Shown one piece after another: positions 55,361 to 57,918 of a DNA stretch of 64,000 nucleotides (its first letter is position 1; every line of letters begins with the position of its first letter). Origin of the DNA: Pyrobaculum neutrophilum V24Sta (GTDB taxonomy: Archaea > Thermoproteota > Thermoprotei > Thermoproteales > Thermoproteaceae); NCBI RefSeq assembly GCF_000019805.1, contig NC_010525.1:1600618-1664617 (forward strand). The letters are read 5' to 3'. Position numbers and translations under genes: made by a program. The notes under the pieces were generated by a model. That model searched no databases. It was not told the origin of the DNA and saw nothing but the letters and a program-made list of their open reading frames with translations.

Positions 55361-56230
55361 ATGGATTTGAGCGGCTTAGTGGAAAAGGTTGCCCGCTCTG
55401 TCGTGGGCGTTGCGGCGAGGGGGGTTGGGGCTGTCGGCGAGGGCTTCGGCTCCGCCTTTGCCATAGACCGGGGGGTCTACGCCACTGCATACCACGTCGT
55501 GGCGCAGGCGGGTGAGGTGGCGTTGATCACCCCCGAGGGGGAGGTGGCTGACGCCGTGGTGGCGGCGGCGGACCCCGCCGAGGATCTGGCCATACTCTAC
55601 TCCGACCTCTACGCCGTTCCGCTGTCACTAGGGAGCGCGCTGAGGCTGAGGGTCGGGCAGGGGGTAGTCGCCGTGGGCTTCCCCCTAGCCCTCCTTGACA
55701 AGCCCACTGCGACCTTCGGCATCGTAAGCGCTGTGGGGAGGAGCTTGAGGGCTGGCGATAGGTTTTTCGAATACCTCGTCCAGACAGACGCGGCGATCAA
55801 CCCCGGCAACTCGGGCGGCCCGCTCGTGAACCTCTCCGGGGAGGCGGTGGGGGTCTGCTCGGCCGTAATCGCCGGGGCCCAGGGCCTGGGCTTCGCGGTG
55901 CCTATAGACCTAGTCAGAATCATGTACCAGATGGTGAAGAGATACGGGAGATACGTAAGGCCGGCGCTCGGGGTATACGTCGTTGCGTTGAACAAAGCTC
56001 TGAAGGCCCTATACGGCCTCCCCACAGACAGAGGGCTTCTCGTCGTTGACGTCGTGCCAAGCTCGCCGGCCGAAGAGATGGGCATCGCCCGAGGCGACAT
56101 CTTAACCAAGGTCGACGGCCGCGAGGTGGCCAACGTCTTCGAACTCCGCCTGTTGATAGGCGAAGCGCTGATCCAGGGCAGAACCCCCAGGATAGAGGTC
56201 ATCAGAGGCGGAAGGAGGATAGAGCTCTAA
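55361..56230 (+). CDS. HtrA/DegP-like serine protease with PDZ domain
   Basis: Protein of 289 aa: a trypsin-like domain with His in TAYHVVAQ, Asp in DPAEDLAIL and Ser in NPGNSGGPLV, then one PDZ domain (LLVVDVVPSSPAEEMGI). No signal peptide is seen, so it may be cytoplasmic, unlike bacterial HtrA. GTTAAATATAAAGG lies about 21 nt before ATG 55361. Protein quality control is the likely role. Confidence 0.9.
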   Translation: MDLSGLVEKVARSVVGVAARGVGAVGEGFGSAFAIDRGVYATAYHVVAQAGEVALITPEGEVADAVVAAADPAEDLAILYSDLYAVPLSLGSALRLRVGQGVVAVGFPLALLDKPTATFGIVSAVGRSLRAGDRFFEYLVQTDAAINPGNSGGPLVNLSGEAVGVCSAVIAGAQGLGFAVPIDLVRIMYQMVKRYGRYVRPALGVYVVALNKALKALYGLPTDRGLLVVDVVPSSPAEEMGIARGDILTKVDGREVANVFELRLLIGEALIQGRTPRIEVIRGGRRIEL

Positions 56231-56650
56231 CCGCAGACGCCGACGGCGCGGGGAACACCGGCGTGCAGCACCACGCCGCTCTCACACAGGCGTGAGCAGA
56301 GCCGTGGCTCACCGGCGTAGCGGCTCCTGCCGCTGGAGACAGAGGCCGGCATTGGATACGCCGAAAACGGGCAGACGCCCCCGAAGGGCCAATGAAGGGC
56401 ATCCGAAGCCCCCAGCCTGCCGCTCAGGCGGCGTCCGCATCGACTTGAAAAAGGTTTCAGCAAAAGAAGGAGTAAAAACACACTTGTTGTCCCACTGCTC
56501 AGCTTTTGTGTATTGGTGTAGGCGCTTGTCGTAGTTGACGTGAATCGTCTCGATCCAGGCGTCTACGGCCCACCGTAGCGGCATGATCGTTAAGCGGGTG
56601 GGTTCCGACAGTGGCGCGAAATATCGTGAGTCTGCGCCACTTCGCTGTGT
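56231..56650 (-). pseudogene. probable IS605-type tnpB relic
   Basis: A 629-bp gene-free region (56231-56859) holds a broken minus-strand frame. The stretch reading MPLRWAVDAWIETIHVNYDKR, then a Glu/Gln-rich segment and FAETFFKSM, resembles the N-terminal part of archaeal TnpB-like transposases. Beyond 56440 the frame turns to Gly/Pro/Arg-rich noise like the GC-rich 3' end of such elements. No catalytic RuvC motif or zinc finger survives. The family call is tentative. Confidence 0.4.
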
Positions 56651-56829
56651 GGCGGAGCCCGCGCGGCGGCCGACGTAGCCATGTCGGGACTTGTGCTGTA
56701 ACGAACCGCCGTGCTCCTCCCTTCTTCCTCGGTGGGATACCTCCTTTTCCATTATTTGGCGCCGCCCTCTGGCGCTTTAGACGGGGGTTGTTGTAGAATT
56801 AGAATCTAGGTTTTTGATGTGTTTCTGTT
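56651..56829. other. gene-free remainder before encapsulin promoter
   Basis: I see no gene or clear repeat here; it is probably the flank of the insertion-sequence relic. Confidence 0.4.
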
Positions 56830-56832
56830 GTG

Positions 56833-56842
56833 TATTTATATA
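56833..56842 (+). promoter_or_regulatory. TATA-like box for ferritin-encapsulin
   Basis: TATTTATATA about 23 nt before ATG 56860. It excludes the longer in-frame readings that start at or just after the box. Confidence 0.65.
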
Positions 56843-56859
56843 TGAGACCTAACACTGTC

Positions 56860-57918
56860 ATGGTGTTTTCGAAAAACCCTGTTGACGTCGTTAGAGAGAA
56901 GAAGTTCGACTCTCTGGAGGTTGCTGATGCCCTGCGTCTGGCCATAATCGCGGAGCTCGACGCCATCAGCCTATATCTACAGCTGGCTAAATACGTAGAG
57001 GACGAGAGGGTGAGGAGGGTTTTTGAAGATGTTGCTAACGAGGAGAAGACGCACTTCGGCGAGTTTCTCGCCTTGCTGAAGGCCTACGACCCCGCGCTGG
57101 CTGGCGAGCTAAAGGCCGGCGCTGGGGAGGTGGAGAAGCTCACCGGTATAAAAAGCGGCGACCCCCCGGGGGACGGGGGGAATAGAGCGGGTGAGGCCGG
57201 CGGGGGCGGTTGGGTTGTGAAATTCGTGGAGGGGGTGAGGGGGGCCGCGGCGTCGTCTAGGAGGTTTAGGAGGTACCTCCAGACTATCTACGTGGGGAGG
57301 GACGCGGATGCCGTCGGCGTCGAGGCGGCGGGGGCGCAGGGGTCGTTGGAGAGGGCTGTCATACCGCTGAGGGAGGTCAGGCTTAGGTTTACTATCTCCT
57401 ACCGGGGGCTTGAGGAGTGGCTTTCGAGAGGCGGCGCGTTTCCCGGAGAGGAGGCCGCGGCTAGGTTCGCCTACATGGAAGACGCGGCTGTGGCTGAGGC
57501 GTTGCTCAGGGGCGCCGGCAGAACTCTCGAAGCGTCTAGCTGGGAGAGGCCGGGGTCCGCCACCGCGGAGGTGGCTAGGGCTGTGGCTGAGCTGTACCGG
57601 GCCTACGTCCCAGAGCCCTACGTCCTCTTCGTGAGCCCGGGGAGATACGCCAGACTTGTGGTGGTGGAGGAGAGGACAGGCGTCATGGAGCTCACCAGGG
57701 TGAAGTCCCTGGTGAGGGAGGTGGCGGTGATCCCGCAGCTGGAAGACGGCGTTGCCCTCCTGCTCTCCGCAAGCCCCGCCGTGGTAGACATCGCAGTGGG
57801 CGTAGACACAGAGGTTGTCCATCTGGGCCCCGACGAGGCGGGCCACAGCTTCCTCCTGAGGGAGACTCTTGCTGTTAGGATTAAAAAACCTGAGGGTGTT
57901 GTTGTGCTTAGGGGATAG
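56860..57918 (+). CDS. ferritin-like/encapsulin fusion (iron-storage nanocompartment)
   Basis: Protein of 352 aa. Residues about 1-100 are a ferritin-like (EncFtn) two-helix domain: AIIAELDAISLYL carries the first Glu and NEEKTHFGEF the Glu and His of the di-iron site. A Gly-rich linker (about 112-132) joins a HK97-fold encapsulin shell protein; its end (VVDIAVGVDTEVVHLG, LLRETLAVRI) is typical of family 1 shells. The cargo would sit inside the shell and store iron or resist oxidants. Similar fusions are known in Pyrococcus. ATG 56860 is set by the promoter. Confidence 0.9.
   Translation: MVFSKNPVDVVREKKFDSLEVADALRLAIIAELDAISLYLQLAKYVEDERVRRVFEDVANEEKTHFGEFLALLKAYDPALAGELKAGAGEVEKLTGIKSGDPPGDGGNRAGEAGGGGWVVKFVEGVRGAAASSRRFRRYLQTIYVGRDADAVGVEAAGAQGSLERAVIPLREVRLRFTISYRGLEEWLSRGGAFPGEEAAARFAYMEDAAVAEALLRGAGRTLEASSWERPGSATAEVARAVAELYRAYVPEPYVLFVSPGRYARLVVVEERTGVMELTRVKSLVREVAVIPQLEDGVALLLSASPAVVDIAVGVDTEVVHLGPDEAGHSFLLRETLAVRIKKPEGVVVLRG

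Follow-up and report, generated by a model that had tools for sequence, protein, structure and literature searches.

A solitary ferritin-like protein-encapsulin fusion gene in Pyrobaculum neutrophilum, a genome with no other detectable ferritin

The gene at positions 56860..57918 (+) of a 64,000-nucleotide stretch of the Pyrobaculum neutrophilum V24Sta genome (NC_010525.1, hereafter the window) encodes a ferritin-like protein (Flp) joined to an encapsulin shell, and its product is very probably a Family 1 Flp-fusion encapsulin, a self-assembled and self-loaded cage that oxidizes and stores iron. The frame is intact and specifies 352 amino acids plus a stop codon. An encapsulated ferritin-like (EncFtn/Flp) domain occupies residues ∼1 to 96 (56860..57147, +) and the shell domain occupies residues 130 to 352 (57247..57915, +). 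A first, sequence-only reading of this DNA had proposed an iron nanocompartment in which cargo and shell form one polypeptide. Comparisons with sequences, profiles, and solved structures bear this out and place the ferritin-like domain N-terminal to the shell, with a single open frame and an alignment that spans both domains.

The closest structural counterpart is the virus-like particle of Pyrococcus furiosus (2e0z), which phmmer aligned to residues 3 to 350 of the window protein in one stretch (E = 1.7e−45). The P. furiosus Flp, excised and crystallized as 5n5e, matched residues 3 to 98 (E = 2.2e−25). A profile built from 17 orthologs matched 2e0z over positions 2 to 356 (E = 3e−75), Myxococcus xanthus EncA (E = 3e−28), and the Thermotoga maritima encapsulin (E = 6e−11). 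Homology to these three proteins is far above chance, and the HK97 fold assigned to the shell rests on this homology to solved structures. In Pfam, Linocin_M18 (PF04454) matched residues 161 to 338 above its cutoff (E = 2.9e−23), and the best match of the ferritin-like domain was Rubrerythrin (PF02915; residues 23 to 81, E = 6.2e−8). The named relatives of the protein are archaeal, and orthologs within the genus share 52 to 95% identity with it. Relative to the nearest ortholog, replacement changes are fewer than silent ones (dN 0.024, dS 0.065).

The ligands of a ferroxidase center are complete. E32 (codon 56953..56955, +), Y39 (56974..56976, +), and E62 and H65 (codons E62-K-T-H65, 57043..57054, +) are all present, with numbering identical to that of Rhodospirillum rubrum EncFtn, and all four are invariant in 38 of 38 aligned sequences, which comprise fusion proteins and stand-alone Flp relatives. 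E62 and H65 lie within DVANEEKTH, which begins at D57 and corresponds to the signature DxxxEExTH, invariant in the same alignment; the motif DXXXEE62XA(T)H65 has been named for archaeal fusions (PMC11202242). In R. rubrum EncFtn, E32, E62, and H65 of each chain build the ferroxidase center at a dimer interface, close to Y39 (PMC5012862). The proposal that every shell subunit brings a ferroxidase half-site inside agrees with such dimer-interface centers (PMC5012862, PMC11202242).

By analogy with P. furiosus, Sulfolobus solfataricus, and bacterial systems (PMC8346489, PMC11202242, PMC5012862), the shell domains would self-assemble into an icosahedral cage, which has T=3 symmetry and 180 subunits in the P. 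furiosus homolog, with the N-terminal ferritin-like domains tethered by the linker to its inner face. Because of this tethering, the enzyme would be loaded without a targeting peptide. The ferritin-like domains would then pair to form a di-iron site from E32, E62, and H65 of each, with Y39 nearby. Fe2+ would enter through pores in the shell and be oxidized at these sites, and the Fe3+ mineral would be kept inside the cage.

Several observations weigh against this conclusion. Both NCBIfam matches, encap_f1 (E = 1.8e−26) and EncB_fam (E = 1.3e−18), fall below their curated cutoffs. AlphaFold2 (AF2) models built from shallow alignments were too poor for checking the shell fold, both for the whole protein (5 rows; predicted local distance difference test [pLDDT] score of 38) and for the shell alone (11 rows; pLDDT of 44). 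The whole-protein model does contain a helical hairpin (residues 18 to 45 and 49 to 76) with local pLDDT of ∼62 to 79. A Foldseek search with the poor shell model returned encapsulins for nearly all of its top 50 matches, and we give it no weight as evidence for the fold, as template modeling (TM) scores were only ∼0.2. Iron entry may differ from that in R. rubrum EncFtn, because the second metal site of that protein, E31/E34, is A31/D34 in the window protein and in nearly all archaeal members tested (A31 in 37 and D34 in 38 of the 38 sequences). The archaeal Flps that we examined, whether fused or stand-alone, share A31/D34; it is a variant feature that involves no ligand of the ferroxidase center, and E31/E34 does not define the archaeal branch. 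No iron-related genes adjoin the fusion gene in the window, and the particle and its handling of iron are predicted here from sequence.

No classical ferritin (PF00210) was found in this genome by a search that gave hits in 14 of 14 control genomes. The only other rubrerythrin-type match is a 237-amino-acid protein (G000:C1:209574-210284; L078:1162-1872) that combines a helix-turn-helix domain (PF01381) with a weak ferritin-like match (PF02915), possibly an iron- or redox-sensing regulator. The fusion encapsulin is probably the main iron store of this genome, and as such would also protect against Fenton chemistry. A general mutual exclusion of fusion and classical ferritin was considered and is unsupported: two genomes of the genus (G002 and G005) carry both, and across the family strong PF00210 matches occur whether or not a genome has the fusion.

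The shell might instead be mainly peroxide consuming, as rubrerythrins are: an anaerobe would use Fe2+ at the internal di-iron sites chiefly to eliminate H2O2 or O2, with the mineral as a by-product. The Rubrerythrin match of the ferritin-like domain fits this, as do the rubrerythrin-rubredoxin and peroxiredoxin neighbors of the fusion gene in some relatives. Neighbors vary between genomes of the order. A peroxiredoxin gene adjoins the fusion gene in one of them, and in distant families it adjoins a gene for a 158-amino-acid ferritin-like protein (in a cluster common to four loci), a rubrerythrin-rubredoxin gene, or a gene of the VIT1-ferritin transporter type; associations of the same kind have been reported (PMC8346489). 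Taken together, these neighbors also count in favor of the iron-storing cage. Against a peroxide-consuming role, the closest solved relatives of the ferritin-like domain are EncFtn ferroxidases, no rubredoxin domain or other electron donor is encoded beside the window gene, and iron storage would otherwise be unserved in a genome with no other detectable ferritin. We consider a mainly peroxide-consuming role quite unlikely.

The linker (57148..57246, +; residues 97 to 129) was described in the sequence-only reading as Gly rich. It is so in this species, but orthologs from the order differ, and Gly-richness is not a conserved trait. Across the order the linker varies from 17 to 49 amino acids and is highly variable in sequence; its sole conserved element is a DPP motif, found in 16 of 16 orthologs. 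At the start of the shell lies RRFRRYL (residues 134 to 140; 57259..57279, +), which aligns with RSLLKHLP of 2e0z. This junction is kept in the order as RRFR(R/K)YL, and R134 and R137 are nearly invariant among orthologs. In P. furiosus, the fusion peptide RSLLKHLP connects Flp and protomer and is tabulated alongside targeting peptides from other systems (PMC11202242, table 2); by analogy, we infer a like placement of RRFRRYL in the shell.

A variable linker would also suit a polypeptide that is cleaved there, which would release the ferritin-like protein and leave the shell empty, and stand-alone ferritin-like proteins of this type, 95 to 105 amino acids long, are common in other archaea. But many families retain the fusion, its junction is conserved in the order, and internalized Flp has been reported for the fusion capsids of P. 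furiosus and S. solfataricus (PMC8346489), which makes cleavage very unlikely. The stand-alone proteins occur in many other genomes of the phylum that have no detectable shell. Four of them (L032, L033, L034, and L027), each of ∼95 amino acids, keep the ferroxidase residues intact and lack both a shell domain and any obvious targeting peptide.

The gene stands alone, as had been proposed: the HtrA-like gene upstream stops at 56230, and on the other side the ThiDN gene runs toward it. The mechanically defined open reading frame (ORF) opens 30 bases further upstream at GTG 56830; ortholog starts align with ATG 56860, which supports the latter as the start codon. A TATA-box-like element, TTTATAT (56835..56841, +), lies 25 bases before this ATG and would serve as a promoter element. 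In most of 17 orthologs from the order, similar elements precede the start codon at approximately −25 to −30. The spacing fits a leaderless transcript and hence a promoter of the leaderless type; of the strong leaderless promoter originally proposed, this is the part that the element and its conserved placement agree with. No credible match to an RNA family was found in the 630-base gap upstream, and an antisense ORF at 56309-56752, which has no family match, was taken as spurious. In the nearest relative (G004; locus L080), ∼4.5 kb separates the fusion gene from the conserved sequence that follows the HtrA-like gene, compared to only a few hundred bases in the window (interval 56495-56860). 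This difference marks the upstream gap as a site of rearrangement.

In a sample of the phylum, near-full-length matches to the protein were found in 48 of 398 genomes, and approximately nine further genomes of one family contain frames of 347 to 373 amino acids in which the match was confined to the first half. Such fusions had been said to be known in a few hyperthermophilic archaea; they do form a described class, but "few" is too low. Of the 11 genomes of the genus, 6 carry the gene intact, 1 carries fragments of it, and 4 lack it. The fragmented gene is in G007 (L007 to L011), and a member of the order, G012 (L024), retains only the C-terminal shell half of the gene. These decayed copies indicate repeated loss. 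In a phylogenetic tree, the window copy groups with those of G004, G003, and G009, the G002 copy falls among other families, and the G005 copy nests among those of another family. Monophyly of the six genus copies was rejected by the approximately unbiased (AU) test (P = 1e−5) and was not rejected when G002 was removed (P = 0.10). A horizontal replacement in G002 is well supported, because the AU test rejects a joint genus group and G002 is placed with other families, and a second is suggested for G005. Presence, loss, decay, and horizontal replacement in a single genus form a series that should be useful for learning how such compartments come and go.

Membership of the shell in the viral HK97 lineage and the broken copies in G012 and G007 might point to a provirus capsid gene that has been domesticated or is decaying and has no compartment function, but this is extremely improbable, given that the window copy is intact with invariant ferroxidase residues, that its neighbors (genes for DUF996, the HtrA-like protease, ThiDN, and 5-formyltetrahydrofolate [5-FTHF] cyclo-ligase) include no portal, terminase, or head protease gene, and that the shell domain has no match in PHROG or among 50,697 phage records.

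As a Flp-fusion encapsulin, the protein joins a class already described and does not represent a new kind of system. It resembles the prototype from P. furiosus in domain order, full-length alignment, ferroxidase ligands, and the DxxxEExxH signature, and it differs from it in low shell identity, in its Gly-rich linker with DPP, and in RRFRRYL where P. furiosus has RSLLKHLP. It belongs to the same archaeal Family 1 class as the crenarchaeal Flp-fusion encapsulins (Andreas and Giessen 2021, PMC8346489), but its gene is solitary, whereas many members of that group share an operon with a ferritin-like protein or a rubrerythrin. It shares the ferroxidase fold, E32, Y39, E62, H65, and the HK97 shell family with the bacterial two-gene systems of EncFtn and encapsulin (R. 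rubrum and the M. xanthus EncA/EncB/EncC system), and differs from R. rubrum EncFtn in having A31/D34 in place of the E31/E34 site. We found no literature on an encapsulin in Pyrobaculum or the Thermoproteales. The new details are the lack of another detectable ferritin in the genome, conservation of DPP and not of Gly-richness in the linker, the loss, breakage, and horizontal replacement of the gene in the genus and order, and A31/D34. A solitary, one-gene iron nanocompartment, presumably very heat stable, in a genome with no other detectable ferritin should facilitate tests of the physiological role of fused encapsulins.

The arrangement of 180 fused Flps has been described as an open question (PMC8346489, PMC11202242). 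A more speculative and, in our view, unlikely proposal is that in this lineage a self-loading encapsulin took over from the ordinary ferritin cage to become the only iron store and passed between lineages as a solitary gene, with the conserved DPP linker and A31/D34 setting the packing of internal Flps under a 180-subunit shell. If true, packing set in this way would answer the symmetry-mismatch question for fused Flps.

The most unexpected observation of the analysis concerns viral capsids of the encapsulin family. In IMG/VR contigs L117 to L125 (e.g., L117:1138-1482 and 2001-2885), the major capsid protein is a strong match to the encapsulin family (Linocin_M18, E = 2e−50) and also matches the major head protein phrog_264, and terminase-like genes lie nearby in some contigs. 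Two genes upstream of the capsid gene, a coiled-coil, scaffold-like protein of ∼115 amino acids is encoded. After a variable linker it ends in LTVG[CD]L[YF]HKE in 9 of 9 contigs, a tail found in 0 of ∼1,590 other ORFs and resembling the encapsulin targeting peptide LTVGSL. Encapsulin cargo loading may have been derived from viral scaffold-capsid binding. In a 34%-identical relative (L141:1008-2447), LTVG is present in the scaffold tail, and most other relatives carry different short hydrophobic tails at that position.
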